DNA from: Protonemura montana | Taxonomy: Eukaryota > Arthropoda > Insecta > Plecoptera > Nemouridae | Assembly: GCA_947568835.1 (NCBI GenBank) | Contig: OX387605.1 | Location: 16,682,418 to 16,746,417, forward strand | DNA length: 64,000 bases | Reading direction: 5' to 3' | Translations under genes and position numbers: made by a program | Shown here: one piece after another, positions 1 to 37,130 of the stretch | Numbering within the stretch: the first letter of the stretch is position 1 | How the letters are laid out: every line of letters begins with the position of its first letter | Notes under the pieces: model-generated | Told to the model about the DNA's origin: nothing | Database searches by the model: none | Seen by the model: the letters and a program-made list of their open reading frames with translations, nothing else

Positions 1-2200
1 CTAAGATCCAGAAAGAGCCATTAAAAACACACCATTATGGTAATCCCCTGGATCTTGAATTGGAACTAACACGGAAACTAGATAATGTGAATATTTGTTT
101 TAAAAAAATCACAATTGTTGTAACTCTAATGAGCTAGGCGATTCACGTGTAATGCATCATTTTAAGCACAGAGGTAAATCAATGCAATTCTCTGTCCAAA
201 ATTGCAAGTTTTTTCCCCTCTCGCGGCTATCTAGCAGCGTAATGACGCGCGAATTCGTAGCGCACGACGGAAATAGCTCAGGATTGAAATAATTGCCGAG
301 CGACTGCAGTGACTGAGCTGAGCAACACATTCATCTCCTTCCACGATCAGAGGCTGCCAGAATCTTGAGAAATATCAACGGTGAAATTTAGCGTCAACTT
401 GTACGTCTGAATAAGATGGCAGTGGTCTGTTCTATTACCAACGTTATGCCTGTCGTCATGATACGTTAAATCCACGAAAACGTTTGGGCTTTCAACCTGC
501 TTCGACCTGTTAGACTAATCAAATTGCCAGTCTTTCATTAGCCCCATGTACCGACAGTTTTGGTGCTGCGTGGTTCATGCTTCTCGATAATACAAGAAAA
601 ATAAACGGAAATCAATAATTAATAGAAATAAGTAAATAAAGGTTGATTTCTTGTTCCCTTGTTTGTTGTATATGTTCATAATTCACAATCACATTTATAT
701 AAGGCATTAGTCACACCATTATTTCGTTCAATTTGTTGCACCGAGAAATTCAGTTCAGTACAGAAAGAATCTTATGCTCAGTGCGATGTAATCAACGAGT
801 TTGAAACACCGCAATTTCGGCTTGTAAAATGCTTGCCACTGAACAAAATTGTAATACAATATTGCAGCCCGATAGACTCGGCGGATATTGCTTACAAAAT
901 ACGCTTGGAAGTCGCTGTGAGCCTCTCATTCCATGCATTCACGAACATGACCATGTCACATTGAAATTGTTGGGTGAGAAATCATGTCATATCGCTAAAT
1001 CTGGGCCTAGGATTTCGTTCAAAAAGGTTTCCACTAAGAAAATTTCAGAAAGTAATGTGGATTGTTTCAAATTTCAGAAATCAATCAAATGATAGGTATT
1101 TTGACTTGACGGGTGCTTATCTCAATGATGTTTTACTTGGAATTCCCGTAATGGTGTGTTTTTAATAAAATCGCCTGGCGATAATGACAGTTTGGTGAGA
1201 CGGAGCGCATGCAGTCCAGTAACCAGTCCAGTAACCTTACTGGTTGGTCACGGGAAATTGATGCTAGGGAGGAATAGTTTCAAAATTAGAACAAAAATGA
1301 AAACTGATTTGAGATCAGGTCTCGAAGCCGAATGCAACGGAGTTTTAAAAATGTTCTAAATTCAATTATTAGCACCAGATGAATTTTTTAGTTAAATGGC
1401 TCTGGTATTAGCGATTCTCGAAAAAAAATTATCACAAATCGGCTTAGAAATTCAGAAGGATTTTTGTTCCACATCAAATCTCCAGTCGCATAGCCAGACA
1501 CCCACTTGATACACTCCTCTTTTGCCGCGGTAGAAAATTTGTGGAAAGGAAAAATGCACACCGTGTCCCGTATCACTCCCCCGGATATGTTAACACTGCC
1601 CTCTATACAAGTAATGAACTAAATATTCAAAGGTACGTCGCAATCTTAAACCCTCGCGATATTAATATGCAAGTTGGCACATTACTGACCAAGCGGTTTC
1701 AGCATTGAGTCAGTCGTTTATTTGGCTGTGTGCTTGGAAATTTAACTTCTCCGTAAACTTCTCTGACAAGTCTAATTAATTCGCGCGAAACGATACTGTA
1801 CTAATTTTAAACAACAATTCTGTCAAAATACGCTATGTGGTATAAAGGGACTCTCTGTAATGTTCTTTAGCTTGGTCCGCTGCGTTTGCGGTAAGCGCTT
1901 GTGTGACTCTGATTTAAGTTGAAGGACACTGCTTTAAGCAGCTATTGAAATAAGAGGACCTGGCATTTAAATATAGCTTATCTCATACAGAAGGAAATAA
2001 TGAGAGAACATTTATTTACCTAGCACTACAAATGCTCTAAAAATCTCTAGTCGAACGTTTAAAATGTTTTTTTCCAATCTCCTAAGCGTCTCTTTCAATA
2101 CGCGTACGCCTCACCGGCGCATTAAAGAAAATTAATCTGCCGAGTGCCAAAACCTGGAAAAGTTTCACCGGCTGTAATTACACTTCGTTTCTTCTGCCAG
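1..2200 (+). other. Intron sequence upstream of the first visible exon
   Basis: Presumed intron of the side-like gene, because the exon at 2201 starts in mid-domain. No exon with a matching Ig half or a signal peptide was found. Only short, composition-driven reading frames are present. Nothing else notable was seen. Confidence 0.6.
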
Positions 2201-2407
2201 GACGACCGCTCCCTCGGGTGCGCTGGTGGCGGGACGAGATGCTGCTGGACTCCAAGGACATGCTGACGACTTTCCCAAACGTCAAGCAGAACCAGCTGAT
2301 TGTCGGGAGGCTGGAGAGGAGCGATCTGCACGCTAAGTACACGTGTCAGGCGTCGAACAACAACATCAGTCAGCCGGTCGCTGCAACCGTCTCCATAGAG
2401 ATGCATT
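2201..2407 (+). CDS. side: side-like exon: second half of Ig domain 2
   Basis: Acceptor is a pyrimidine-rich run ending CTGCCAG; donor is T|GTGAGT. The exon enters with 2 nt completing a Gly codon and leaves in phase 1. It encodes residues 1-69 of the window product: GRPLPRVRWWRDE (core Trp of the Ig fold), then RLERSDLHAKYTCQASNNN. The last stretch carries the D-x-x-x-Y-x-C motif of Ig strand F. NIS is a possible N-glycosylation site. The matching first half of this Ig domain must lie upstream of the window. A minus-strand reading frame over the same bases is a shadow. Confidence 0.93.
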
Positions 2408-14400: not shown

Positions 14401-17400
14401 GGTGGAAAACTTTACATATTCGTGCTTACTAGCCCATAGCCTTAACTCATTCCTAACCTATTTCGTAAATTTTGACACTAAAATTCTAAAACGTTACCTT
14501 GTTATCACATACTTTTGTTTGAAATTAATTATATTAAACTTTATTGTAACGTAAACAAGCCAATATAATCTCTTGCTTAAACTCATCCAAGTAATTACTC
14601 AAAGTACAAGTAAAATTACCGTCAGAAAGTATAATCTTTGTGTCGCAGGTAGATCACATTAATCATTTCGAGCGACAGCGAATGCAGCGCTCGGTGCGGT
14701 GCTGATGCGAATTCCATGGGAGCAATTGTTTTAGACTTTGCCATCCAGTGTGAGGAAAAACGAACGAAATGGTTACGTGATTAACCGTCGTAATAAACTG
14801 ACACCGCGAGCGCTGCGTTCGCTTTTAGATGTTTTACAGCTACTTTGAATATAACTGACAAACAAACTAAAAAAATATCTATAGCTTGAGTTTCTTTGCT
14901 CCAGGTAAAGCAATAATGCACTTTAGCACGACCCGTACCATTGTATAGAAGTGAAAAGGAGTGTCGTTTTCTTCAACACTTACATCAATAAATATGAATA
15001 TGAAATTGGCATAAACGGGCGATGAAATATTCAGAATATGTTGCATCAATATTGCTGCGCTTCTCACCAAGCAAATAGCAAAGCCAACTTTCTTGATCGT
15101 ATCAGGTGTCAGATCTTTGCTTAAAAGCTTTATCGTTAAGGCTCAAATGGGTTTAAGTCGTAGAGTTACTTGGTTCGGGTTATAACTCAAATAAAGTTAA
15201 AATGCTATTACACAATCCTTCTGATATATTCTAATAAATATATCGTAATGCGAGCTGACTTGTTTCAAAGTACCCTTGGATAATCGCTTAAACACACAGA
15301 CTGTTTTGCAAAAAGCTAACATGAATTACGTAATTAAATATCTATCTCCTGAATTAAACACAAAAACATGTGTTATACTTTAATTGTACTGGACATAACA
15401 GCAGGAAAAATACAGAGAAAATTGAGCAACTAAAAACATTGGAACTAAAAAGTCAATAATCTTGTGTTTTCAGAAAATCAATCTACAAATTACTGTGCAT
15501 AATTGTGGAGTGATCTCTGATTGTTGGTGTAGTCTGGATGTTATTTACGCCCACGCCGCTACGGCAACGGTCATAATTTGCTCACTGCATTCTGCCTCCG
15601 CAAGCTGCTGGTTCGCGAAAGTCACGTGCGAGAAGAGATCTTTGTCCCCCTTGCATTTCCTTTCAAACATTTAATTAAATATGACAAAAGTGCTTTGAAA
15701 CTGTTTGTTAGGTTCTCTTAATTAATTAAAAATATCTAGTTTCATTGGTTACGCGAAACGGGTTACGTGGTTCACGCAAAACGGGTAAACAGGTAAACGA
15801 GAGCTTTTACTCAACTTGAGTATTTCCGGTCATGGTTTAAGGCCCGGTATTACAATATTTTACAACTTAAAATGTAGGAGTAAGCTTAGGAGTTAAGCTC
15901 CTAACTCTCAGAAACAGCTGACTTTCACTTCATTTGATTGGTTGTTGTCATGGCAATTGATTTAACTGCCGCTTTATGAGAAATACACATTTCGGTTTGC
16001 TGTGCATTGCGTAACATTTTCCTTGTTTTCTCCAGTTTAGAATTAAGAACGAATCGGTGAACTGATCTTCTGTCTTTATTCGTTTCAGTCAAGCCGTTGA
16101 GCGCTAGCATCTTGTCCAGCAACCAGCCACTGTCTTCCGACAGGAAATACGAGATTGTCTGCCAAGCGGTGGGCTCAAGACCTCCAGCAAAGACCACGTG
16201 GTGGATGGACAACAAGAGACTGGACGACGCCGTTGAAAAGGTAACGCTGCCCTTCCACCTCCTGGCCCTCCCCCACCCCCACCACCACACCCACCCACCC
16301 ACCAGAGGATTAATATTAAAGAATTAAATTCAAATGCCGTGAGTTAGAAATTAAAACGTAGTTCTTGTGGAAGTCCGAGCACGAACGAGAATCGTCTGAC
16401 TATAAAGTTTTAAACTACAATTAGTTGCAAAAATTCAAAGAGAAAATATCTATAAATTTATGTTTTTTTTTTACAAGTTTAACTTTAATTAGTTTTTGCA
16501 GAGTAGCAGAAAAGTAACATACGTTTATAAAAGCCATCGAGTTTTTTCTCAGCCTTGTAACTATACAACGTATTTTTTTGTTAAAGTTCATGTCGGTTAG
16601 ATTCCTTAGCCACACTCATTAAAAACTTCGAGTAGACAACATCAAAAAAAATGTTCTTTTTCAAAACAACGTTTGTTTGTCGTTGTCGCCAAATTCAATT
16701 GGCACTTCTAAGCATCCAGCAGGTGTTTGTTTGCAACACGCAAGCGCCTAGCACTATTGGGGGGCTGAGGGCCAGCAGAAGGCTAGCTGAGACGTCGCTG
16801 AGGGTGTTAGCGTTGGTGTTAGTGGTCTGATGTCAGCTTATTGTGGTTGCATTCGAAGCTTTCAATATTTAATGTGTCTGTCCCGACAGCGGACAGGCAC
16901 GGGCGAAGTCAGTGACAGTGTCCTGGGATAGGGGTCCGAGTGTGGGCAAGGGGTTGAAACGAGAGATGTATAAAGCTAGACAGCTGAAACCTGCAGGTAT
17001 ATGGTCGTACACAAGGGAGGAGGAAATATATGAAAATTTGTATGGGTGAAAAGTTTGATATGTGAAAGGATGTTGTTTTTATTTCTTTTTTTTCGGTTTC
17101 ATTTCTTTCACTCTTTGTGAAAATGTAGGAAAATGTTTGCGGTTTTATGTTTGTGTTTTCCACGAAATTTAATCAATATTTTTATTTATTTATTGTGTTT
17201 TTTGATGTCAAGAGAAATGAAAATTAACCTCTTTATTAACTTCGTGCTTGCAACTCACTCAATTTCGCTTTAATTTAATTAGAAAAGCTTCCCGTTAATG
17301 AAAGTATTGCTGACAACATGTTCATAACAAAGGATGTAGTACAACAATGGGTGTAATTTCAGCCCAAAATAAACGAGTGGGTATATCATGGTGCTTAATG

Positions 17401-20400
17401 AACTAGCGCAAGCACTTTAAAATTTAAAGTTTCATAAACATGTCGAGTATGCGTTATTATACCTTAATACCAAGTTTAAGGTACAGAATTAAGTATTTAA
17501 AAAATATAAAAACCTTCTCATTCATAACAGAGAGTGACTGACATTTATTTTGTCAGCGAACAATGTGCGATTAGTTGCGTTAGTGAAGTCTTCGGGTCTC
17601 CATTGTAATAATTTGCATTACAACATTTGTAAAATTATCCAAAATCGATTCAAAGTCGTTGTTTCACATGCACGCCAAACGAAACCTACCTCCAATAAAT
17701 ATAATTGACCCTTATAGCATCACTTTGGTATAACTTGACAACCATTTTCTTTGCATCACTGGTGAGTCCAAACAATAACGCGATGCCGCTTGAACACAAG
17801 GATGATAGACAATACAAACAAAGGTGACCAACATTTCTCGCACATAAACATTTCTCGCACATGTTTGGGCTCAAGCAGGGTCGTTAGGGGGTCCCGGGTC
17901 ATTTCGGGGGGCTTGTTGCTACTCGGCACGTACGTCACAAAGAACGAGCAGCATTTGTCTTCGTCAACCCGGGCGTCGCGACGCCGACGCCGACGCTCCA
18001 GGGTTTTTACTGTCCCTTCGCATTCTCCCCGAGGACAACACACGGCATGATTCACCTCTTGTTTTGCTCTTGTTTTTGACGGCTGCTATGTGTGACTGTT
18101 TTACATTATTTTGCAATATTGGCTTTATGTGTGCTCCTGTGAAAAACAACATCAGCCAGAAACGAAGTTTAATTTTCATTTCCATAAAACAGTCGTTTCT
18201 AGTGAAGTCAGGTGTATCTTAGCACTGGAATTCAGTTCAAAGTCCGTGATTTAATTTCATCGATTTTGTACTACTTTTACTAAATACAAAAAATATGTCA
18301 TTTTTCTCTAAGCCTATCTTTTGAAGTGTTAGTTAGGATCACGAATATTTTAATTCGGGAGAGAAAACATTTCAGCCAATACCGTGGATTATGCCTTACT
18401 TATTTAACCATATCTCGAATGAAACAAAGACTTAATTTATCGACTTGCATGTTAAGACTATGTTTAACCCATTGTTATAATATCTGTTATAATTTTCAAT
18501 AGGGCAGGCAATGTGGAAAGGGGTTTCACGTTAATAATGAAAAGATCTCGAGTCTCTATAGAAAGGAAAACACAATTAACTGAAAATAAAATTGAAAAGA
18601 ATACCAAATCAGAGATTGGAACAGCGTGTTTGGCGCGGGCAAGCGTGCCACTTAAAGCAACCTAAAAAGCATTCTCTCTGGCACACGCTTTAGAATATGT
18701 TACCGACACAGTGCTCCAACATACGCATCTGCACTTGCTCGAAATGTTTTTCAAGTTAATAGGTAGAGTCACGTTGCTGTACGTTTTATCCAGCAAAACT
18801 AATAGGCGTGAACACTGCAGGTTGGAATATTCCATTCATCGCTCGCAACTGGATTGACAATGGAGCACCATGTATTTGCCAAAACATTCACAACGTAAAT
18901 CAACTCCAAATTTGAGATATATTTCACCCTCAAACCACATTTCATTAATTTGCTCTTAATTCTTCTCATTGGTCGATGTAAGAGCGAACGCATAATCGAA
19001 TCTGACATCCTAATCAGAGTGTCATGTAGGGATACATGCACATACCAGTCTAATCTACCTTCGATAACCACATTTTGACCTGTTGATGGATCCGTCCCAT
19101 ACATTGTTGCCCTGCAGGCTTGATAGGACGCCACGGTGTCGATGATTAATTGATCGAGTGATTGATTACCAGCACATACACGGTATGGTCGGAGGGAATC
19201 AGATTGGTTTATAGAATCACCTGACTAATTGAAACAGACGCGAAACGATTAATTATAACGTAACCCAGTTTTGCCCATAAAACCTTGTTTTACCATCTCG
19301 GCAGAAATTCCTCCGAGAATGGACGAGGTGGGCGTGATCCGTCATTGTGGAGGAGCCGGGTTTCAGATTAATTTAGAATTTAGAATGCGGAATGTATAGA
19401 GCGTATGGCGCCGGCATTTCATTTCAATCCAGCGATTTTCAAGATTCTATTATTTTAAAAGGCCAATAAAGATCACCCCTTCGTCCTTGGCTTGTGTATC
19501 CTACAATTGTATACCTGGCCTCAGGTTGGGTCAATATATTTTTGTTTCAGGTGGTTTTACCGATCGTAGAATTGCATAGCATTGTGTTGATAGTTTTCCA
19601 GAGTCACAGCGCTAATAATAAACGTCCTACAAAGCAAACGAGCCTCGTGCAGCATGGTATAGCTTGGTGTATCTTATGGCTATCCTTTTCAACAAAACAT
19701 TTCATAAATAACGACTTAAAACAAAATATCAATATTTGAGGTTAGCATCAACGAATATTATTTGAGAGTAATTCAGATTCAAAATTGAGTTACCTGCAAG
19801 AAATAACGAAATTAAATTTCTTAAAACACGCAATAAAGATTGGATAATTTCTGGGCGACTATCATTCATCGCAAATGTTCGTGAAGAGAGTTAAAGAAAC
19901 AAACTGTAGACACAACACCCATAGCTTGGCAGACCTTTTCCTTCCCACAACATTGAGAATGTCACCTGTGTTTTACTAAAGTCACCATTCCCTTGCCGTG
20001 TTCGCAGGTATCAGCCGATGGCAACGTGACCATCTCTACTTTGAATTTCACCCCCACAATGCTGGATCACGACAAGACGCTCACATGTCGGGCGGTCAAC
20101 GCAAGGGTGCAGTCCGGGGTGGAGGAAGACACGTGGCGTCTGAACGTATTCTGTAAGTGTCTTGACAAGTTTTCTTTGACGTAATGTTAATTTCACGTTA
20201 CTTGGAGAGGCACGTGGTAATTGGCAATTGTCTACTTGTCAAGCGCAGATGACAACGCATTTTTTTTTTGTTACAGAAAAATACTGTTTTAATTGATTGG
20301 CAAAGGCATGGCGTGACCTAGTTATCGTTATTGATTGGACATTTGAGGAAAACATACTTGCTAATTATGCTCGCGCGCTGTTCACCACTTCGAATATGTT

Positions 20401-23400
20401 GAAAAATCTGTCCCTTTTTTTGTCTCTACCCTGTCATTAACGTTATTTTTTTCTTGTTATTCTTCTACATATATACCAAAATTGATAGCATCTCTGCTAA
20501 CAAAATACAGGTTTTATGCATGCATATATAGATGTCGTTGAACTGTAATTGAACAGTGCACATAATTACAATGAACATGTTCAACTTATTCATGAACTGA
20601 CTGTACTTATAAGTGGCTTGATGTTATCATCAAGTACTTTTTTTGTTTTTTATCTTGCTTTTATTTTTATTGGGTAGAGGAGTAAGGGAGAGGGGAGGAT
20701 AGAACATTTATTTTGGAATTTTAGCTACGCGCAAAGCATCTCGAGTATTGTTTTAAAAACAAAATCTACATTATTTTAGCTCCTAATTTCAAGTCATCTC
20801 TCAGTTCTGACCCGAACCGTTCTTTTCACTTTGATCCAGTCGTTCCGATGCTACATCTGGAGCTTGGTTCGAATCTCAACCCCGACGACATTGAGGAGGG
20901 TGACGACGTCTACTTCGAGTGCAAAGTGCGCGCCAATCCAGAGGCATACAAGGTCATCTGGAGGCACAACGTGAGTCCAACGCATATCATGAGGTTACGT
21001 TTAGGGGTCGCATCTCAAATCTAAACTGAAGCACTGTAGCACTATTGCATGGATGGAATACGTTAACGATTGATTACATTATGTAACTGTGTTATACTAC
21101 ATCAAGAATTTGCATGGAAAAGAACTAGATCCTACAATTGGTGGTAAGATGCTAACTTCATCCGTTTTAAAACGTTTCTCTGGAACTAGTAATTTAAATT
21201 TCGTAGCATACATTTCTTGTTTTCGTTGTGGCCTGGCACCAATCGACCAGACAGTTATCACAATGGTTTCATGAACATTTTCACTATTGGTTCGTACCGA
21301 GTTCTTGGCTTGCTTTGTGAGTGAAATTGCGTCTCAAATATTTCGTCAGGCCACTTTAATGGCAAGTTCTCGAAGATGTAGCAGCCACCACTACGAATTT
21401 TCCAATAAATTTGGCATTTTGACTATATTAGGGTCTAAATAGCAATCGAAGCAAGTTATTCAATAAATGTGTCAACTTTTGAGTGAGGGGTGCCATAAAA
21501 AGCGGGACATGTGTTTATTTTAATATATTGGAGCTTGCCATATGGTCGTATAGAAAGCGATGCTGGTGGTGGCCATCATGCATGTGCAGCCAATCCTGTA
21601 GCCGCACATGTACTTAATAACTTTAAAAAGCTCTTATTGGCTACAAATGATACGCTTTCCATAGATATGAGTAGGCGTCACATTCTAAACTTTTCCTTGT
21701 AGTGATTGATTTTTCTCCTTATCAGCCGGAGATTTTGTTTGGCAAAATAAAATATTTAACTACTTGTGCATTGGTAGCAACACCTTAACCTTTTACCTCA
21801 TTACCACCCGACAAAGGATTCGTAACCGCACGATGTCCTAGTAATGAAAAGCTTAGGAAGAAAAGCGTCGGTGAGAAAAATCAGAGATTGCCCCGGTTTT
21901 CCGCGACCGGATATTGCTTTTCGTTCGTGGATTTGTTATGATACGCGCGATGTGGCTTCGGATCGAGTTTCTGCGAGATGTTTCTCGTCTGCAGAACGTG
22001 ATTTCTCGCGATCCGCGCGACTTGCTTGTCAAGTGATCTTGCGGTCGTCTTAACACCCTCTACAACACTGCGAGTGACTCGGCTTTAGACGCGAAATTGA
22101 TTTCTCAAGGCTACACCTACACCCTGTCATCGGAGGCTGTTACTCGGCATTGTAATTAAATAATCTGTGTGTTACTTGTTACTAGAATTTTGCCGTTCAC
22201 TGGCAAATCGGGCAAGCATTAATTATTTGCAAGGTCTAGTCGTCCATAAATCGTATTTTAATTTGAAGCAGACTTCCAACTCCGTTAGCTTGTCCCTGTT
22301 TTTGCTGGCCATGTCCGAGCAGTAATTAGACGTGTATCTGCTTTAAATATCAGATGACTTCTTGCTGATCCTGGGACCAAGCCTGGTTGTGAATACGTGA
22401 TCAAGTCTCTAACATTAAAGCCTCACTATGGAAAATGGAAGAGGGACAAGGAGAAAATTTTAAATAAGCAACGAATTTCGGACGCCGCTTAAATACCTAC
22501 TCAGTATACGGTTTCTTTGTCGTTTGCAGCTGTTTCTAGAACCGCCAACGGTACGATTTCTAGACTTGCAATGATTTGTGAAGATTTGTTGCAAAACCAT
22601 TTCCAAATAAATGCTGACAAAGGAACATAACTTTGGACTGTACGAATGTCATTTTATTTTTGCTGTCATGATTTTCTGGGATCGAAAATATTTGTAAACT
22701 ACTGCACTCTCAACGGTATTAGTTGGTCAAACTTTCCTTGCGGTCATCAAATTGGTTTGTTCCAAGTTTCAAGTGAACGTGAATACAGGTATAGCCTTAC
22801 CTTTGCCCTTATTCAATTTCAATCTTAGAACTAAATCTCGTAACTTAAACCCCCTGTAGAAACCGCTTTCCTCATATAGAGTAGAAGGGCACCAAAGATA
22901 TAAAAGTTGTCCGGCCAGCGGTTTTGTTCAAGGAGTTTGGTGTAGTATTGAAGCACACCGACAACCACACCAAGTTTATAGTTGGAAGCCCGAACACATC
23001 GCCGGCCGATCGGCTACTGATAATATTACAAGAGTTGTGGCTATGTAAGAAAGAGTTTGCGTTGTTCCTTCTTTGCTCTATCTTGTTCGTAAAGTCTCGC
23101 ATGACCACGGCACTGATAAATCGTCTAGTGGCGAACATGGTATTTTATTCGCCAACCGAACCACTTTACAAAGGTACGAAAGCCCGGGGAGGTGAGAGAC
23201 AAGAGAGGAAATCGACGCCGAATTTTCTTTCCTTACTATTAGCACTTTCATGGAGCGATTTCTTCCTAGCACGCACGGCGCTTGGCAGGAAGTTCTGTCA
23301 GGGAAAGTGTACGTGTGTTATTGGGGCACACTTATTTGAGCAAGAAAGCTTCACCTACATAACGGTGCGCACGAAGGGGGGGGGGGGGGGCAGTTTATGT

Positions 23401-26400
23401 CTGGTTCCCACTAAATTCGCTTGCCAGTCAACGGTCCGGAATAACAGTTTACAAAATGCAAATTTTTGACACTGATTTCATTTTTTTTTGTAATCTCGCT
23501 ATAAAATGATACCGATTTTTTAACGGGCCCATTAGATGAACAACCGTCGCCTTCCAAATCCACTCGGCTATGGGATTTAAAATTTTTGTAAATTTGCTAC
23601 CCTATCCTACACAATGTGCGTTTGTCTATCGGTAAGTCTATCGGTATGTCTATCGGTATGTCTATCGGTATGTCTATCGGTAAGGTTATCTGTACTGAAG
23701 AAATATTATTTTCAATATCACCTTATTTTCCACATATATACTCTAAATTATACCCTTATGGTGCACCTTATGGTGCACCCTACGCTTGCCTTTCAGCACC
23801 TAGCTATTAATTGTAATATCACTTGAAAATTTTCCGATCTGACTTTAGTACCTTGCATTTTGCTGTATCTCATTCACTACACAGTAAATATTTCAATAGT
23901 ATGCTATGTGTTCAAACTTGATACTCAGTCATTCTGTATGACCAATCGAACACTGAGCACAATATTTGCTGTTTAACAAAACACTCGTATATCAATAAGT
24001 TGAATAATTTATTTTCCTGCATGAAGAATCGACCAGTCCAGTCGCCCTCTACTACATCGATGAAAATAAGCCAGAGCTTGAAATATGTTTGAACTTCTTT
24101 TGCAATATTCATCAACCATTGAAAGAGTTAGCCTAAAGGTTCATCTTCTGCCAAGCGTATAATTCATTGGGACACATATATATGTATATAACACGATCGT
24201 CTTGTAAGAGCATCGTTTGAATCTCGATCTGTGCTCACCGAACCTTGATGAGCTGGACCCATAGCTGGACCAATGATTCTTTGAGACCTCGCAGTCGAAT
24301 ACGATCTTCCCAACCGCGTCCAAACAACATCTCGTAGATGCCGTAAAACACGCGGCTTCACAGTCATGGGTCAAGATTCTTGTGTAACAGGCTCGGAACC
24401 ACCTTACGAGGTCGTTTTATTTTCAGTCATAAACACACTTATATAGAAGTGCCGTTCAGTACCTGAATTTTATTTGAAATAAATCATGGAATCATTGGTT
24501 TTTTTGTCTAGATTCATGTAGCGAGGTTCAAAATCTTTTCGGTAACAAGAAAAAGCCTACATAAAATACTATTTAAAAATGGTCACACAAAGTAAAAAAA
24601 TACAAAAAAAATACAAAAAAAATGTACAGAATTTAATTTGAAATACTATTATAGAATATAACTAAAATCACCAAGAAAATGAACAAACCTATTAGTAGAT
24701 AGATGCACCACATTGATTTTGACGAGAATGAAATAATTCTGTTTCGCTTTCCTTTGGGACGAGCCAGATTTTCGCCAGAAATAGATATTTGACAAAGACG
24801 TGTTTTAGGCAAATCAGCAGGTATTTGTTTTAGGCGGGAAATTGATGTTCACTAACACTAACACGCGACTTCTAGTCGGGAACTTGTTCGAATGTTTTCA
24901 CGCAGATTGCTTTTCCAGTTTCCAGCTGTTTGCCACAAGTTTCTCTTCATGCCTAGACACTCTATTTACCCCAATTCAAAGACTTTTCAATCTTCCATTC
25001 ATCCTCAACTCTCACAATGGAACTTCTGATGACATACTTAGACGAACAGTTTTCGTGTGCTATTTAAGAAAATGAAAATGTCGTAAGTTTTAGCCTTTTA
25101 TTTAGGCCTTAGGTGTGGTAAATTTGATGGGGTTCTCTTCCCTTATAAATGTGAGGAAGAAAATCATCTAAAGACGTAAAGACGAGCTGTAAAAACGTCA
25201 TCGCGTTCAACCAAGCGATAAAACATGTATACAAGGAAATAACCCGCCTTTCGCAATGTCTATTACATTCATCGAAGCGTCTTTCAAGAACAATTTTACA
25301 GTTTTATTTCATTTTACAACTTACATGTAAATGAATTCCGTCTGGTTAGGTCCTTGCTCACATGCATACACTAGCTTACCAGGAACTGAAATTGTGTAGT
25401 AATTATTTTGAAAATGCACATCCGCCACTTTATGGACAGTGAGACCAGGTTACTCGGAAATAAACATAATAAACATATCATATGTAAACCACGTCCGATA
25501 CTTCATACATCATAATATATGCAATCTAATTAAAACATTTCATGAGTTTTACGTATATATGTTTCAATTAAACGACTGCTTTTAATGTTTTGCATCAAAA
25601 GTAAACTCATATTTTAATTATCGCATGCCATGAAATAGCTACATTTACTCTGTGGAAAGAAATGTGTACACTTTCTCGTACATTTGCTAGACTAACATGT
25701 CCGTGCGGGAAGGCGCTTGTAAATTATAATTTAATACAGACAAAATTATTTCATCGCTTAAAGCATAACAGAAAAAAATTCTTTGAGTTCCTTGCATAGA
25801 TCGTCCGGCATAACTCGTTTACATCTATGTCTGAAATAACGCTCACCGAATTATAAAGCCCAGTGTTTTTGGCCGAATGTGTACTTCACCTTTTCTCTCT
25901 TTCTCACTAATTAAGAGCCAGGGGAAATTCACCACTCTAAATAGGACCACCCTGAGTCGAGTCCTCGGAGCTAGTCGCTGCCAACGCGCTAGAGAACGCT
26001 TTCATGGACCAGGATCAGGACTCTTCCCGGCTTTATTCCTCTGCGGTTGAATCCATAATACTTGCATGATCGTCAATACCGAGACATTCCACCAGTTACG
26101 ATCACATCACAGTTTCTGTACTCGTACTTTAGACCGTGAATACTTAATATTATTACCAGAGTTCTTAATTTAAAATTACCAATAACTACCATAGCTATAT
26201 CTGCAGACACCTTCTATAGGCTGGGCTAAGCACACACAGATGAATATTTTAAGGCTACCATTATCAATTGATTAATGTGTCCAATAGAACACCTTGAGCT
26301 AAGCTCTCTCCCTCTATTTCACGTCAAATAGTATCTAGTCCCTGTATCTCTTGTGACGAGAGTCCTCTCATCGCACACGGAGCGTACTCCGTAGAGTACC

Positions 26401-29400
26401 TCACCTAATTCAGTTGGTGCAAGTTAGGGCATTAAAACGGCCAGGAAGGAAGGAGGTTAGGATTCCGCACATTGTTCTATTGTGGCGATAAAACAGTCGC
26501 TCTTCTCTGTGGAAACACAAAGCTAACCTTGCCGCAAGTGAACCCCGTACGACGCGCCTTTTGCAAGCCTTTATACTCAACTCATTGATTTCATTATTAT
26601 GTGCTGAGAATTTGGAAACAAGGAATTTTCGTTAGCGCTCTAGTGAGAATGGGATACTTTTGCTACTGTTTGATAGAACTGGATAGATCTTATACAGAGA
26701 GACGTGCTCGTTTGAACGATAATAACGTTATTTTACATTTTAACTGACGTTTTAATGCTTTGAGTTACTTTTCGGCTAAAGCTCCCAACTAAATTTAGCA
26801 TCAACATAGTTTATCAACGGTAAAATATAACAAAACATTTGTTTGGTTTTGCTTCTAGGGTCAGACAGTGCAGCACAATCAGAAGGCTGGAGTCATAATG
26901 AGCAACCAGGACCTGGCACTTCAAGGGGTCAGACGACAACAAGCTGGAAACTACACTTGCATTGCGTCAAACGTCGAGGGTGACGGCAACAGCAACGTCG
27001 TCGAGCTTCGAGTTATGTGTAAGTTGAGACTTCAGTTCCATTGAAACTATTCCTTGAGCTAAGTTTTGGATATGAGGAAGTGGACAGCATAAAGTTTATA
27101 TTACTGTTTGGTTAAATAGTTTTCAGCGATAGCATAAAGCCCCAGTTTGAGAATTGAAGAAGTTTGAGAGAGTTTATTTCCATCTTTATAACTGGCACAA
27201 CCTTATTACAGACACACCTATATGCCGGCCGGACCAGAAACGAGTGTACGGGGTCGCGAAACACGAAAACGCTCACGTGCTGTGCGAAGTGGAGAGCTAC
27301 CCTCCGCCAGACAGTTTCAAATGGTCGTTCAACAACACTGCCGAAACTATCGACGTGCCCCAAGCGAGGTACCGTAGCCCGGGGGGTTCGGCACACTCTC
27401 TGTCCACCCTGACGTACACGCCGATGGCCGAGATGGACTACGGCACGGTCATGTGCTGGGCATCCAACACTGCGGGACAACAGAGAGAGCCTTGTGTCTT
27501 TCACATCATTGCGGCTGGTGAGTTCTGAGATACGGCGGCGATATTTTTAATCATCCTTATTCACAGCGTTCCCATTGTTTTTTTTTTTTCTTAAGGAATC
27601 TTGAGTTTTCTTTTGTTTGGAAAAACGTATTGTTGTTGTTGGAGGGAGAATGTCACAGGAATTCCAAATGCATGGTAGATTCCGGATGCTTTTCATTCTT
27701 GGAATTTCTGATTTTTTTAGCGAGTTTTTTTTTCCTCTTAAATTTCTCTCAATGGGACATGGAAAACTGCCCACGCTTTTTCTAAAAGCGTCCAGCCGTT
27801 CTTTTAAAACACTTGATGCTTATTTGTGTGTCCTTCGCTTATTCCTGCAGGACACCCAGATATGCCGTACAACTGCACGATACTGAACCAGACAACTGAG
27901 TCCTTGGAAGTCGAATGCATCGAAGGTTTCGACGGCGGCCAACCACAGCACTTTCTCCTCGAAGTGTTCGATCTTCAGACGGGCCAATTGCAAGCAAACA
28001 TCTCGTCCAAGTTTCCCGCGTTCAGCATCAATGGCCTTGGGGCTGGCATGGTGCTCAAAATGCTTATTTACTCGGCCAACTCCAAGGGCAAGAGCGACAA
28101 CATCGTCATGGAGGGGTTCACTCTCAAGGTTGCAGAGAAGCAGACTGGTAAGTAACCAAATTCTAAACATCAATTTATAATTTTTGTACATCGAAGCATG
28201 TGGTGAAAAATTTGCGTTTGCTCGTAACATTTCGAAGATTTGTATTCTTCGTTTTAGCAACCGAGGCAGATTTTTCGTGCTGACATATACTGTATGAAAT
28301 CCATCATGCTAATCTTTTATTTTCTTTCTGTTGTCAAAAGAACTTTCCTTACTTTCAATCGCCCTGTGGGCGTCTTTGTCACAGCCATTCCCAGAAAGTG
28401 ACGCAGCACTTTCTGTTCCAGGAACGCCGGTTCCGTTTGAGCTTACCCCCGTCCTGGGCATCCTGATCGGCGTGGTGACGGTGCTGCTGCTCGTGGCGAT
28501 TGTCATCGTCGCCGCTTTGCGGGTGCGCGCCCAACACCGTGGGGGTCCCCCTCGACCAGGGAACCTGACTATCAAAGAGAAGGTGGCGCTGCCGCTCAGA
28601 TCGGACGTCGACGATCTCTACCAAACTGACGACAAAAACCCCGATGTCATACCATGTAATAAAGGTACGGAAGCAGTATTATTAACATCACGGTTTCGTT
28701 GTATTAATTTGATGTTTTTGTGCGCTACAGGAATACAACATGTAGTATGCACAGTAATTGCTTGTTGCAGTATACTTTTAACTTGTTGTCAAAGTGGTAA
28801 GTTACCATGCAATGCCGGAATCACTTGTTTTAAACATATTTTTTTCAAAAACTCTGGTCTGCCAAGATGGAAAAACGCCAATTGAAATAACAAATGTTGG
28901 TCATGCTTCAGTTTTCGTTAAGATTGTATCGATTTTAATTTCTCTGAAAAGTGTGTTACTGTAACCAATTAAAATTGCCATGTAACGTACTTGGAATAAA
29001 TAATTACCCAGTATAGTTTCCGAGCTACGGTAATGATCAGAACATATTTGAAGGCTGATATAAATTTTCTTTTGTTAGCTTCCTAGAATTAATATTTTGG
29101 AATGTTCATTTTGATACACTTTTTCATTGAGTCTTGATTCGTTTAGCAAGAATTATTGAGAAAACGCCAGTATATTAAGCGAGGCACTTGTCTAGAAAAA
29201 ACCCCAGCTCGTGCAAGCTGCTGACCATTCTCTGGAATGTTCTCGCGGCTGTACACACGGTATGTACACAAAGCAATGACTGATCGCGTAATTGCGTGAC
29301 AAATAAGCTGGCCGCGTTAGCAGATGGCGAAAGTCTCCATAGCTAGAGTCCTGAACAAGACGGTAGTGTTTGTCAATTTCATGATATCGAATCAATCCGG

Positions 29401-32400: not shown

Positions 32401-33370
32401 GCACTTTCATTGTGATGCATTTCGAATGTTCTGGCTTTAGAACATAAGAACCGTGTGCACATATTTCGACTTGAAAGCATTATGCAGCTGTTACGTAAAT
32501 AAGTTTTCTCCATAAATTATCACGACGACGCTGTCTTTTCTTTCTTCAGATTCCGACTACCAGCTTGTTTCTGGGTCTCAAACCCCGGGCCTAAACAACC
32601 AGACTTCCTTGGAGCTGCCTTCTTACGAGGAGCACCCGAAACGCAACAACGTGGTGACTAGAAACGGGGATGTCTTGGAGAACTACAAGAACAACAGGGA
32701 TCGCTTTCCTTCGCATCCAGTAAGTCACTCACTGATTATTTCCACTTTTCAGTTGCATTCCAGTTTTTATACATTTGTGGGGAACTTCAAAGCCAGTCCC
32801 GCAACGTATTCGCAAACTCATGAAATTTTATTCCGGAAAATGGCTACTTTTGAGTTTTTCTCCTTTTTTTGATGGTTTGAACCAATAAACTGTTACGATA
32901 AATAAATTCACAGGATATTTGTCCAAAGCAAATTAGCATAGCTTACATGTCGAACCAGTTCCTAAAAAGTAATCCAATTTGAATTGAATGTTTCCAATAT
33001 AGTTCCCGATTTGTACCCAAAATAATTAAAAACACCGAACCTTTTCTAAAGTCTTTCTGAACTCCAGGCGTCTGAAGAAGTAACGTATGCGGAGCTATGT
33101 CTTGCTCGTCCGACCCACCTCCAAGACTCCACCGTCCCGGCCGGAGCTGCCGCCAAAATGTCTACTCCTTTACTCCGAGGGGAACCCACCATCTACGCCC
33201 AAATCGACCACAGCCGCCGCCCTCCCCCACGCTCCCCCGGCGACGCCACCCTCTCGCCGTTGTCGCCTCTTGTCTCCCCTATGGCCCACATGCCGGGTGC
33301 CCTTCTCCACCGCGAGATCGTCACCGTGAGGACGCCGTTGATGGCCAACCAACAGGAAAGCTGTGTATAG
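2201..33370 (+). CDS. side: Side (sidestep) family Ig-superfamily receptor, 3' part of gene, 10 exons
   Basis: Single-pass cell-surface receptor of the Sidestep family; known members bind secreted or membrane Beaten path proteins and guide motor axons or match synaptic partners. Joining 2201-2407, 16089-16240, 20008-20152, 20840-20970, 26859-27018, 27212-27517, 27851-28147, 28422-28664, 32550-32719 and 33068-33370 gives one uninterrupted frame of about 704 residues. Every junction has AG/GT ends and matching phase. Order in window numbering: Ig2 second half (1-69), Ig3 (70-168), Ig4 (169-265), Ig5 (266-367), FN3 (368-466), transmembrane helix about 477-499, tail 500-704. Family hallmarks are GSRPPA, LELGSNLNPDDI, NVEGDG, PICRPDQK and WSFNNTAE. 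The 5' exons (signal peptide, Ig1, Ig2 first half) are outside the window. The family assignment is firm. Which side paralog it is cannot be decided here, so the symbol is a family label. Confidence 0.93.
8027..8044 (+). repeat. ATT microsatellite
   Basis: (ATT)6 in the first large intron; it encodes an isoleucine run in one frame. Confidence 0.9.
11659..11685 (+). repeat. Poly(C) tract, 27 C
   Basis: Twenty-seven consecutive C on the + strand inside the 13.7-kb intron. On the minus strand it is poly(G). Confidence 0.95.
12297..12310 (+). repeat. AT microsatellite
   Basis: (AT)7 in the first large intron. Confidence 0.85.
12419..12437 (+). repeat. TC microsatellite
   Basis: About nine TC units in the first large intron. 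Confidence 0.9.
16089..16240 (+). CDS. side: side-like exon: first half of Ig domain 3
   Basis: Acceptor TTCGTTTCAG, donor AAAAG|GTAACG. The exon completes a split Phe codon and ends in phase 0. Residues 70-120 include KPLSASILSS, the first domain Cys in YEIVCQAVGS, and TTWWMD with the core Trp. The run from the linker Lys-Pro-Leu to Gly-Ser-Arg-Pro-Pro is a strong family signature. The intron before it is 13.7 kb, the largest in the window. A C-rich run (16263-16303) lies just inside the following intron. Confidence 0.92.
16241..20007 (+). other. 3.8-kb intron
   Basis: Intron splitting Ig3. It starts with a C-rich stretch (16263-16303) and holds a strong GGCGTCG palindrome near 17.98 kb. 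No other exon-like or RNA feature was recognised. Confidence 0.7.
20008..20152 (+). CDS. side: side-like exon: second half of Ig domain 3
   Basis: Acceptor CCGTGTTCGCAG, donor TTCT|GTAAGT; enters in phase 0 and leaves in phase 1. Residues 121-168 read VSADGNVTISTLNFTP and then the strand-F pattern D-x-x-K-x-L-T-C with the second Ig3 cysteine. NVT and NFT are possible N-glycosylation sites. The end (EEDTWRLNVF) leads directly into the Ig4 linker of the next exon. Confidence 0.92.
20153..20839 (+). other. 687-bp intron
   Basis: Intron between the Ig3 and Ig4 exons, with GTAAGT and ATCCAG ends. It is AT-rich and nothing else was seen in it. Confidence 0.75.
20840..20970 (+). CDS. side: side-like exon: first half of Ig domain 4
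   Basis: Acceptor CTTTGATCCAG, donor CACAAC|GTGAGT. The exon completes a split Phe codon and ends in phase 0. Residues 169-212 contain VPMLHLELGSNLNPDDIEEG, then VYFECKVRANP (first cysteine) and VIWRHN (core Trp). The LELGSNLNP linker is a distinctive family marker. The exon ends within the fold, just after the Trp, at the same relative place as the Ig3 split. Confidence 0.93.
23376..23390 (+). repeat. Poly(G) tract, 15 G
   Basis: Fifteen consecutive G in the intron that splits Ig4. It lies within an otherwise open frame as a glycine run. Confidence 0.95.
23624..23683 (+). repeat. 12-bp tandem repeat, 5 copies
   Basis: Unit GTCTATCGGTAT, five copies. The first and last end in AA instead of AT. 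The unit is a multiple of three, so it keeps frames open (VCLS or SIGM type repeats). It lies in an intron. Confidence 0.92.
26859..27018 (+). CDS. side: side-like exon: second half of Ig domain 4
   Basis: Acceptor TTTTGCTTCTAG, donor TATGT|GTAAGT; enters in phase 0 and leaves in phase 1. Residues 213-265 begin GQTVQHNQKAGVI and continue with LALQGV, QAGNYTCIASN (second Ig4 cysteine and an NYT glycosylation site) and VEGDGNSNVVELRVM. These strings match the conserved Side Ig4 closely. It is separated from its partner half-exon by a 5.9-kb intron. Confidence 0.94.
27212..27517 (+). CDS. side: side-like exon: complete Ig domain 5
   Basis: Acceptor CCTTATTACAG, donor GCTG|GTGAGT; phase 1 on both sides. 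This single exon holds a whole Ig domain, residues 266-367. It opens with YTPICRPDQKRVYGVA, then VLCEVESYPPP (first cysteine), FKWSFNNTAE (core Trp and an NNT site), YTPMAEMDYGTVMCWASN (second cysteine) and finally EPCVFHIIAA. The PICRPDQK and WSFNNTAE strings are the clearest family identifiers in the window. Long minus-strand frames here are shadows. Confidence 0.95.
27851..28147 (+). CDS. side: side-like exon: fibronectin type III domain
   Basis: Acceptor TTATTCCTGCAG, donor GACTG|GTAAGT; phase 1 on both sides. Residues 368-466 form a fibronectin III-like domain: P-x-N-C-T at the start, SLEVECIEGFDGG in place of the usual Trp strand, FLLEVFDLQTG, and a late YSANSKGKS turn. NCT, NQT and NIS are possible N-glycosylation sites. 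As in other Side proteins it is the last extracellular module before the membrane. Confidence 0.93.
28422..28664 (+). CDS. side: side-like exon: transmembrane helix and juxtamembrane tail
   Basis: Acceptor CACTTTCTGTTCCAG, donor ATAAAG|GTACGG; phase 1 on both sides. Residues 467-547. TPVPFELTP precedes a hydrophobic helix of about 23 residues (VLGILIGVVTVLLLVAIVIV and on to Leu499). A basic stop-transfer RVRAQHR follows, then juxtamembrane KEKVALPLRSDVDDLYQTDD and NPDVIP. Another AG at 28393-28394 (CATTCCCAG) lies exactly 27 nt upstream in the same frame and would add nine residues. The downstream site has the better pyrimidine tract and is preferred. Reading through the donor runs into intron. 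Confidence 0.92.
28665..32549 (+). other. 3.9-kb intron
   Basis: Intron between the transmembrane and tail exons, with GTACGG and TCTTCAG ends. It is AT-rich. A small hairpin (TACGGTTT/AAACCGTA, 30734-30750) was the only structured item noticed. No exon-like segment was recognised. Confidence 0.7.
32550..32719 (+). CDS. side: side-like exon: cytoplasmic tail with YQLV and LPSY motifs
   Basis: Acceptor TTTCTTTCTTCAG, donor CATCCA|GTAAGT; enters completing a split Asp codon and leaves in phase 0. Residues 548-604 contain SDYQLVSGS, where YQLV fits the YxxPhi adaptor-binding consensus, and ELPSYEEHPKR, where LPSY fits the LPxY variant of the PPxY motif bound by WW domains. The remainder is polar and probably disordered. 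The identification rests on uninterrupted phase and the family-like DDKNP...SDYQLL/PSYEEHPKR order as I recall it from other Side proteins. Confidence 0.9.
32720..33067 (+). other. 348-bp intron
   Basis: Last intron of the gene, with GTAAGT and CTCCAG ends; phase 0. The other short introns (27019-27211, 27518-27850, 28148-28421) are equally plain. Confidence 0.8.
33068..33370 (+). CDS. side: side-like terminal exon: ITIM-like and ITSM-like tail, stop
   Basis: Acceptor TCTGAACTCCAG; enters in phase 0 and ends at TAG 33368-33370. Residues 605-704. It starts ASEEVTYAELCLARP, then EPTIYAQIDHSRR, a Pro/Ser-rich stretch, and MANQQESCV at the C terminus. VTYAEL (33080-33097) fits the ITIM consensus and TIYAQI (33188-33205) fits the ITSM consensus; the two tyrosines are 36 residues apart. 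The exon is much richer in GC and proline codons than its surroundings. Overlapping frames in both directions are shadows. Confidence 0.92.
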   Translation, partial: ASEEVTYAELCLARPTHLQDSTVPAGAAAKMSTPLLRGEPTIYAQIDHSRRPPPRSPGDATLSPLSPLVSPMAHMPGALLHREIVTVRTPLMANQQESCV

Positions 33371-34619: not shown

Positions 34620-36632
34620 TATTTCCTCACGTTAAGTAAATACCTCTTACCTTGCTAGTCGTACCCTTATTTTTATTTTACTTTCTACCGGCAACAAAAC
34701 GTCATATCACATCCAGAATTATTTTTATTTCGCTTCAGTAATCTCATGTGCTAAAATCGCACCAAAATACCTCAAAAACACACTCGCATCTCTACGATTT
34801 AATTCGCTAGAATCTCTACTCACAAAATCAATGCGTCGCTGCGGTGGACTCGTCTGACGGAGCGCACAGTTCACGTCGTCGACGATGGAAAGTGAAGAAA
34901 CTTGATGGCACTCCACTAGTTTCCCGACTCTCGGTTTCTGTTTGGTTTCAATTACCGCGATATAACCACGCGAGCACGGGAGAGATTCTAGCCGTTTCCT
35001 GGTTTTTCATTCTCTTCCCATCCCCACCTAACCCCTCCCGTTTCCTCCTGGTTTCCGTTTACACGCCTCTTTCTTGTCCAACTTTCCTCCCCTCGACCTT
35101 TGCACTTAAGATAGTGATGAGTCAGAGAAGAACCGGGAAGAACCGGGAAGAAGTGTGTAATTGATGATGTTGAGCATGCCGCACGCTTGTAATGATTCCC
35201 ATTCCTAAAGAGCTTATCTTTCTGTATTGAGAGTGCACAGGTCGACGAGTGATTCAGGTGCGGTGACATCTGCAAGAAACATACTTTAAGAATAGTTTAA
35301 GAATTCCTAGATCCCAGAGTTAATGTGAGTTAAGTTGACTCTATAGTGCACTCTTTGATAAAATTTTGTGAACTGAATTTGATTCCGAGGGCTAGAAGGT
35401 GAACCCAAGAACTAAATAAATTGTAAGACACTCTTGCTTCTACGTCTAAGCTTGACGGCAAGCGTTGAAAATAAGTCATGGAGGAATTGAAAGGAAACAG
35501 TCGTGCTTTACGATAGGAGAACTATCCTAGCATTTGTGCCTGTGGAACACCACGGGAAACCAGGATAGCCGGTCCCCAGAATCGAACCTGAAAAGTCCCC
35601 AAAGCCTAAACGTCCAATTCTGTCACAACCACCAAGTAAAAGTTATCAGTCAAAAAGTAAACTGCATTGAATCTAATTGCACGTTGCCTATGAAAATAGA
35701 TGACTGCAACCTACAAACAGATTTTCGGAATTGGTCAAATCAATCAATAGTCTGTCACATTCATGGAACATACATGTCTAAATTTACAATACTCAAAACA
35801 ATTCTAGTAACTTATCCGAACTAGATGTATATTATCAGGTGAACATCGGGAGCTGATTCTAAATTTGTAATACCGCCAAGTCCGCGAGCGGCGGGTTTTG
35901 CTTTCCCCTTCGCCCGAGCGAATTTGCTAGTCCCCTGCGACTCATGAAATGTACAGCTTTCTTGGCCAGTATGAAGATTGAAGACTCTCACAACACCAGT
36001 GGTAAAAAGAGTAAAATAAGATTTTTTGAATCACGACTCCGTTTTAGTGCGCGTTTTTTCGCTGTCTCAGATTGTGTGTGGGTATAAAACATAGGCTCCA
36101 GGGGTCACTATAGTGTTATCAGAGATCACTGATGGTACACTTAACGTGACTTGGAGAAGAATTTACCATTTTAGTGTGGCTAGTAAAGTCATGTCCCCGC
36201 TGAGATTCGCAAGAATAGACGGTTATTCGTTTCTTACGAAAGTTAAAAATTGGTTCCATTTACATGGGGTTTTATGTTCCATTTATAGCAGTGGATTCGT
36301 TTTGTTGGTGTTGACAATTAATACACCTTTACGATGTTTTTAAATATTTTCCCAGATGAAAACTTGCATGAGAAAATGGTGACAAAGCACTCGGAGACCA
36401 TTCCATCTTCACAATATTTCCGTATACGCACTAAAAGTTTGCAACAAATACAAAATTATATGCAAAAGTAGCAGCGGAATATATCACATTTTATTTGCAC
36501 CCTCCAGTCTTATCAGTTTAGTTTATGGTCTTAAACAAGAATGATTATCCATCATTTCATTCAGTATATTTTACTTAATGTGACGTTGACTGGTGATGAG
36601 ATCTTCATTTTTAAAGGTTACTACGCTGCAGA
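34620..36632. other. Gene-less stretch
   Basis: No recognisable gene. It contains a C-rich patch near 35.02-35.1 kb and a small AAGAACCGGG duplication near 35.13 kb. Confidence 0.5.
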
Positions 36633-37130
36633 GTCGCTTACTGGAACGCGCCAACAAAATGCACAAATAATTCAGTGACTCTGCCATTTGGAAAATGCAT
36701 GGTTGCTTACTGGTACGCGCTCACAAAATGCACAAATAATCCAGTGACTCTGCCATTTGCAAAATGCAGGGTCGCTTACTGGAACGCGCCAACAAAATGC
36801 ACAAATAATCCAGTGACTCTGCCATTTGAAAAATGCAGGGTCGCTTACTGGAACGCGCCAACAAAATTCAAAAATAATCCAGTGACTCTGCCATTTGAAA
36901 AATGCAGGGTCGCTTACTGGAACGCGCCAACAAAATTCAAAAATAATCCAGTGACTCTGCCATTTGAAAAATGCAGGGTCGCTTACTGGAACGCGCCAAC
37001 AAAATGCACAAATAATCCAGTGACTCTGCCATTTGAAAAATGCAGGGTCGCTTACTGGTACGCGTCAACAAAATGCACAAATAATACAGTGACTCTGTAT
37101 CTAAAAATCCTGAGTCGCTTTCTCTTTGGC
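36633..37130 (+). repeat. 69-bp minisatellite, 7 copies plus a partial eighth
   Basis: Seven units start at 36633, 36702, 36771, 36840, 36909, 36978 and 37047, each opening G(T/C)(C/T)GCTTACTGG. A degenerate partial unit begins near 37114. Unit length is 69 bp, that is 23 codons, so a frame stays open on both strands (CRVAYWNAPTK is one repeated reading). Units 4 and 5 share the variant AAAATTCAAAAATAA and units 2 and 7 share GGTACGCG, which shows local duplication. It is probably satellite rather than coding, since there is no flanking gene structure. Confidence 0.95.

Follow-up and report, generated by a model that had tools for sequence, protein, structure and literature searches.

A paired ITIM-type and ITSM-type tail in a Side-type receptor

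A Side-type receptor gene of the plecopteran insect Protonemura montana ends in a coding exon that carries two tyrosine motifs, VTYAEL and TIYAQI, which fit the consensuses of the immunoreceptor tyrosine-based inhibitory motif (ITIM) and the immunoreceptor tyrosine-based switch motif (ITSM), respectively, and both are kept in a diverged paralog in the same genome. The gene, here called S1, lies on the forward strand of a 64,000-nucleotide stretch of contig OX387605.1 (assembly GCA_947568835.1, positions 16,682,418 to 16,746,417), which we refer to as the window; S2 to S8 are Side-like paralogs found elsewhere in the animal's own genome. To judge from its sequence, the chances are about even that the S1 tail is a phosphotyrosine dock, most likely for the phosphatase SHP2/Corkscrew, placed beside a PDZ anchor. 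The features of the terminal exon are as follows:

33068..33370, forward strand: terminal coding exon of S1, 100 codons plus stop; AG acceptor at 33066-33067, frame open to a TAG.
33074..33103, forward strand: EEVTYAELCL, ITIM-type motif, core VTYAEL at 33080-33097; the S2 counterpart is EEVTYAELSL.
33182..33208, forward strand: EPTIYAQID, ITSM-type motif, core TIYAQI at 33188-33205; the S2 counterpart is EPTVYAQID.
33356..33370, forward strand: C-terminal ESCV plus stop, class I PDZ ligand, matching the pattern ES(C/T/A)(V/I/L)-stop.

The exon translates as ASEEVTYAELCL...GEPTIYAQIDH...QQESCV-stop and has two tyrosines in all, one in each motif, spaced 36 residues apart. VTYAEL fits the ITIM consensus (S/I/V/L)xYxx(I/V/L), and TIYAQI in S1 and TVYAQI in S2 fit the ITSM consensus TxYxx(V/I), both consensuses being those of Table 1 in PMC7226588. 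A sequence-only reading of the window had proposed an ITIM followed 36 residues later by an ITSM at 33080..33205, and the two motif assignments, the spacing and the span all proved exact. An error of frame or strand is ruled out by the GT-AG exon borders and by homology to S2. The pair is also not an immunoreceptor tyrosine-based activation motif (ITAM), because 32 residues separate the two four-residue motifs and the ITAM consensus, YxxI/L x6-12 YxxI/L (PMC7226588), places 6 to 12 residues between them.

Conservation of the pair in paralog S2

The paralog S2 lies on the window's contig (C3) at 16.93 Mb, approximately 220 kb from S1, and the two proteins are 44-49% identical in their last Ig and FnIII-like domains. 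The conservation evidence comes from paralogs within one genome, chiefly the comparison of S1 with S2. The terminal exon of S2, at 7942-8322 of the downstream region L029, is homologous to that of S1 and reads AEEVTYAELSLPKQQ...EPTVYAQIDVTKK...HRESTV; it encodes the pair as EEVTYAEL and EPTVYAQID, with the tyrosines 35 residues apart. The ITIM-then-ITSM order to which the sequence-only reading had drawn attention is therefore the same in both genes.

Over the last two exons, S1 and S2 share 46 identities in 137 ungapped columns (34%), and these are concentrated around the two motif tyrosines: 17 of 22 residues within five positions of them are identical, compared with 29 of 115 in the remaining columns (Fisher P 5.9e-6). 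Without alignment, the longest stretch that the two tails share exactly is the eight residues EEVTYAEL, a length reached in 0/2000 shuffles. S2 keeps the six-residue cores except that V replaces I at position -1 of the second site, so that the tyrosine and positions -2, +1, +2, and +3 are unchanged at both sites. Conservation also extends beyond Y and +3: positions -4 to -2 are kept at both sites, as are +5 of the first site and +4 of the second. For the other three tyrosines of S1 in these two exons, one of which lies in SDYQLV, the surrounding contexts have 2/4, 2/10, and 2/11 aligned residues identical. The 19 motif codons differ between S1 and S2 by 11 silent and 2 replacement changes (raw counts, no site model), the replacements being a C-to-S change flanking the first core and an I-to-V change at -1 in the second. 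We therefore read the excess of silent differences as selection on the protein, and together these comparisons point to purifying selection at both sites, rather than chance. S1 and S2 are old duplicates that have kept the tyrosine pair while the surrounding tail drifted.

In 200,000 shuffles, an ITIM with an ITSM no more than 50 residues after it arose in 0.024% of cases for the exon and in 0.17% for the whole 206-residue S1 tail, frequencies that take no account of the motif having been picked from a large scan. In six-frame translation of 254 kb (the window and regions L029-L047), 4 of the 1730 open reading frames (ORFs) of at least 50 residues carry such a pair: the S1 exon, the S2 exon, and two antisense frames. 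Because the motif came out of such a scan, the shuffle and ORF counts alone would not decide the matter, and the conservation in S2 does. That the pair is a functionless chance match in a low-complexity tail is very improbable. The ITIM is a loose pattern, present in 26% of shuffled whole S1 tails, the additional S1 match SDYQLV is absent from S2, and pairs are expected when much sequence is scanned; however, both cores recur in S2 letter for letter save I/V, even though the two tail exons are 34% identical overall, and silent changes have accumulated within the same motif codons. A chance origin was rejected on this conservation.

Eight Side-like loci and a common PDZ-type ending

The last Ig and FnIII unit of S1 was used to search its own genome (258 Mb, 34 contigs), and eight Side-like loci were recovered: S1 itself, S2, S3, S4, S6, S7, and S8 on the window's contig, and S5 on contig C2. 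As expected of the multi-gene Side family, all eight have the last Ig-FnIII unit in common. Downstream from that unit, we examined 10 kb of DNA for S2 and 30 kb each for S3-S8. Terminal exons were identified for S2-S7, and that of S8 was not found in the 30 kb from its Ig-FnIII unit. A tree built from the last Ig-FnIII units groups S1, S2, S3, and S6 with support of 85/94, below the star threshold and too weak to tell a single gain of the pair from its loss in S3 and S6.

The ES(C/T/A)(V/I/L)-stop pattern is found once on the sense strand of each of S1-S7, where it ends the terminal exon, and across the eight regions (244 kb) the antisense strand has 0 matches; the lone S8 match is a 14-residue frame. 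The C termini of seven of the eight paralogs are class I PDZ ligands of the form ES(C/T/A)(V/I), the terminal exons of S2-S7 lying in L029, L030, L034, L037, L039, and L042, and those of S4-S7 were recognized by G+C content and by the PDZ-type ending itself rather than by splice borders. A class I PDZ ligand is a C-terminal (S/T)-x-hydrophobic sequence, to which ESCV in S1 conforms, and the S1 C terminus would accordingly be predicted to bind a PDZ domain. A juxtamembrane box, (N/D)PD(V/I)IP, encoded in the transmembrane exon, is common to S1-S6. The exon before the last encodes a YxN sequence, a Grb2/Drk-class site, in both S1 (YKNN) and S2 (YANV), at positions that do not align. From the membrane to the C terminus, the S1 tail thus runs from the NPDVIP box through the tyrosine-rich YxN exon, VTYAEL, and TIYAQI to the PDZ ligand.

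When the S1 and S2 tails were searched against the genome, each found itself and the other tail (E 0.0026 and 0.0019) and nothing else below E 0.01; the next matches were at E 3.3 and 2.6. The S1-S2 tail alignment gave 15 and 34 pattern matches against viral and prokaryotic contigs, none of them confirmed, a comparison that is uninformative on orthologs. Downstream of S5, at L037 8994-10000, is a tandem satellite with a 293-bp unit, which continues into L038, as judged by repeated frames.

An SHP2/Corkscrew-type gene in the same genome

On contig C2, positions 26466915-26480569 of the forward strand encode two SH2 domains followed by a phosphatase domain, all on one strand. In one stretch of the first SH2 domain, 54 of 62 positions are identical to those of a PTPN11 chain, and PDB searches with pieces of both SH2 domains placed PTPN11 first. 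Because of the SH2, SH2, phosphatase order and these top PDB matches, we conclude from sequence comparison that the genome holds an SHP2/Corkscrew-type gene. The sequence-only reading had noted that arthropods have one SHP2 homolog (Corkscrew); a gene of this type, with similar SH2 domains, is found in this genome. Genome-wide, there were at least 40 SH2 matches and at least 57 phosphatase-domain matches, both being lower bounds.

Candidate partners of the tyrosine pair

By function, an ITIM is phosphorylated on its tyrosine and recruits an SH2 phosphatase to inhibitory effect, and an ITSM switches between SAP-type adaptors and SHP phosphatases. The SH2 domains of SHP phosphatases prefer a hydrophobic residue or Thr at -2, Ala at +1, and an aliphatic residue at +3. 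The order and spacing of the S1 motifs, together with V or T at -2, A at +1, and the aliphatic +3, point to SHP2/Corkscrew. From the directly observed motifs, their conservation in one paralog, the SHP2-type gene, and the PDZ ending of seven of the eight paralogs, we infer phosphorylation of the tail, SHP2 as its partner, PDZ binding, and a direction of signaling. Binding of a partner by the ectodomain (Beat in flies) would lead a Src-family kinase to phosphorylate both tyrosines; the doubly phosphorylated tail would then engage both SH2 domains of SHP2/Corkscrew, opening the phosphatase beside the membrane, and the PDZ ligand would keep the receptor within a scaffold. Because SHP2 often promotes Ras-MAPK signaling, the receptor could signal in either direction, positive or negative. 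A broader proposal, which we regard as possible but doubtful, is that a branch of the Side family has a neural "checkpoint" tail, made up of ITIM, ITSM, and PDZ anchor, that recruits Corkscrew/SHP2 upon Beat-type binding, so that wiring would be gated by a phosphatase switch of the vertebrate immune type that was independently acquired.

Several observations weigh against an SHP2 dock. No ITIM-ITSM pair was seen in the S3-S7 terminal exons or in any sense-strand ORF of at least 50 residues in the examined DNA of S3-S8; of the seven other paralogs, S2 is the one that has it. On the S3-S7 exons a family-wide motif was rejected, and the pair is not a general feature of Side receptors. The S3 exon starts with SGDMMYAAGG, in which YA occupies the same alignment column as the first S1 site, and PTYAGGV lies near the second site, one residue off; neither S3 site has an aliphatic +3. 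Within the S1 tail, SDYQLV is a third match to the ITIM consensus and it is not kept in S2, so a bare consensus match means little. SHP2 is broadly used, and the mere presence of its gene is weak evidence of partnership.

A further point on that side is that YAEL and YAQI also fit the YxxPhi sorting consensus (Y-x-x-bulky hydrophobic). Under this alternative, which we consider unlikely, the unphosphorylated tyrosines bind the mu subunit of AP-2, endocytosis sets the surface level of the receptor, and any phosphorylation blocks the process. Both sites are located in the tail, and many guidance receptors are controlled by endocytosis. Nevertheless, YxxPhi needs only Y and +3, whereas the flanking positions at -4 to -2, +5, and +4 described above are also kept in S2, and AP-2 needs neither a spaced second copy nor a T at its -2 position. 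If the sites are endocytic signals instead, they would account for how the Side surface level is set. It is likewise improbable, and slightly more so, that the two tyrosines are phosphorylated docks for other SH2 proteins, such as Drk/Grb2, Dock/Nck, Shark, PLC-gamma, or Src kinases, with an adaptor or kinase output. The YxN sequence of the adjoining tail exon in both paralogs and the 40 or more SH2 exon matches in the genome would favor such partners; on the other side, the ITAM spacing is not present, and the residues at -2 (hydrophobic or T), +1 (Ala), and +3 (aliphatic) at both sites suit the SHP SH2 preference. The SHP2/Corkscrew dock is the reading that we favor among these.

Architecture of S1 and its proposed assignment to the Side family

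S1 is best described as a Side-type receptor with Ig domains, an FnIII-like domain, and one transmembrane segment, a label that is based on this architecture, on the eight-locus family, and on the naming in the sequence-only reading, rather than on comparison with a named Side sequence. Members of the Side family are described as having five Ig domains, followed by one FnIII domain and one transmembrane segment (PMC5578738, PMC9743010). The features upstream of the terminal exon are as follows:

2086..2400, forward strand: upstream Ig domain exon (borders approximate); Pfam I-set, E 8.4e-6.
16061..16230, forward strand: partial Ig domain (approximate); weak Pfam C2-set_2, E 0.0054, under the curated cut-off; linkage to S1 inferred.
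19990..20150, forward strand: partial Ig domain (approximate); weak Pfam C2-set_2, E 0.0051, under the curated cut-off; linkage inferred.
20830..21000, forward strand: partial Ig domain (approximate); Pfam Ig_3, E 6.1e-5, under the curated cut-off; linkage inferred.
27241..27519, forward strand: last Ig domain exon (borders approximate); Pfam Ig_3, E 4.4e-9; homologs in all eight paralogs.
27850..28149, forward strand: membrane-proximal FnIII-like domain exon (borders approximate); AlphaFold2 model; homologs in all eight paralogs.
28422..28664, forward strand: transmembrane exon with a hydrophobic stretch and the juxtamembrane NPDVIP box (28637-28654); AG and GT borders.
32550..32719, forward strand: tail exon, DSDYQLVSGSQ...LPSYEEHPKR...LENYKNNRDRFPSHP; three tyrosines, one in YxN; AG and GT borders, phase 1 in.

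The Ig matches of S1 are spread over several exons and are mostly partial or weak in Pfam, and the transmembrane exon is present. The I-set exon at 2086..2400 probably belongs to the S1 gene, its linkage following from strand and order only; the first Ig domain and the signal peptide of S1 were not located. The membrane-proximal domain of S1 has no FnIII match in Pfam. AlphaFold2, run on 7 aligned paralogs, gave seven strands with a mean predicted local distance difference test (pLDDT) score of 89.4, which is in keeping with FnIII as judged by the model alone. In the tail, the S2 counterpart of the exon at 32550..32719 (L029 7684-7829) opens with ETDY, at a position matching the start of the S1 exon. 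The S1 terminal exon has no Pfam match, and a PDB search with the tail gave two matches, at E 0.46 and 3.3, that we take as chance. PDB matches of two ectodomain pieces include NCAM2, contactin-2, Kirrel3, Robo, titin, Dscam, and RPTP-delta, and no entry named Side was among them. A 12-bp tandem repeat of 5 copies lies at 23623-23682 of the window, in a presumed intron of S1, and a 69-bp tandem repeat of 6.8 copies (94% match) lies at 36627-37097, approximately 3.3 kb downstream of the gene, within open frames of 172 residues (forward strand) and 130 residues (reverse strand).

Comparison with known systems

Intracellular signaling by Side receptors is little described in the literature consulted, and within its open-access part we found no description of tyrosine motifs in any Side tail; the papers found there for the motif sequences themselves concern vertebrate receptors. 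The available text of three Side papers (PMC5578738, PMC9743010, PMC12350164) treats ectodomains, binding, localization, and phenotype: the words "cytoplasmic", "intracellular", and "PDZ" are absent from that of Li et al. 2017 (PMC5578738), "tyrosine" from that of Heymann 2022 (PMC9743010), and "cytoplasmic", "intracellular", and "tyrosine" from that of the 2025 LPLC2 paper (PMC12350164). Tyrosine motifs in arthropod immunoglobulin superfamily (IgSF) tails have already been annotated in Daphnia Dscam (PMC6851185), and an ITIM-Corkscrew connection has been described for Draper. A selected ITIM-ITSM pair in a Side tail singles out two residues, a class of kinase, and a phosphatase as candidates, and the PDZ ligand that seven of the eight paralogs share adds a second class of binding partner. 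If the SHP2 dock is correct, nerve wiring would have come to use the SHP2 switch independently.

S1 resembles the Sidestep (Side) family in its Ig domains, single FnIII-like domain, and single transmembrane segment, and the eight loci found here equal in number the eight Sides reported for Drosophila (Li et al. 2017, PMC5578738). The founder Drosophila Side does not have the S1-type C terminus, because its cDNA in PMC9743010 ends TLDPTLK, a sequence obtained by translating the reverse primer printed there. In Drosophila, the surface receptor Draper-II is said to bind Corkscrew via an ITIM, the motif through which Corkscrew reportedly acts as the eraser for Draper in flies (PMC8092387); Draper-II, however, is an engulfment receptor rather than a Side protein, and its ITIM is found in a splice isoform. 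Arthropod Dscam is, like S1, a neural IgSF receptor with predicted ITAM/ITIM and PDZ motifs, the ITIM being reported in Daphnia tail variants; according to the available text of PMC6851185, the shrimp and crab proteins have no ITIM, and an ITIM-ITSM pair is not described there.

Among vertebrate receptors, PD-1 and mouse CEACAM1 likewise have Ig domains and a tail with both an ITIM and an ITSM, although the spacing in mouse CEACAM1 is 27 residues (Y454 and Y481), compared with 36 in S1 (PMC7226588). The S1 receptor differs from the vertebrate ITIM/ITSM receptors in being of neural type and in its FnIII-like domain and PDZ ligand, and the likeness seen is one of motif. At the level of the motif it is close: the ITIM printed for SIRL-1 and for mouse NKG2A/B is VTYAEL, the same six residues as in S1, and an ITSM printed for mouse NTB-A is TVYAQV.

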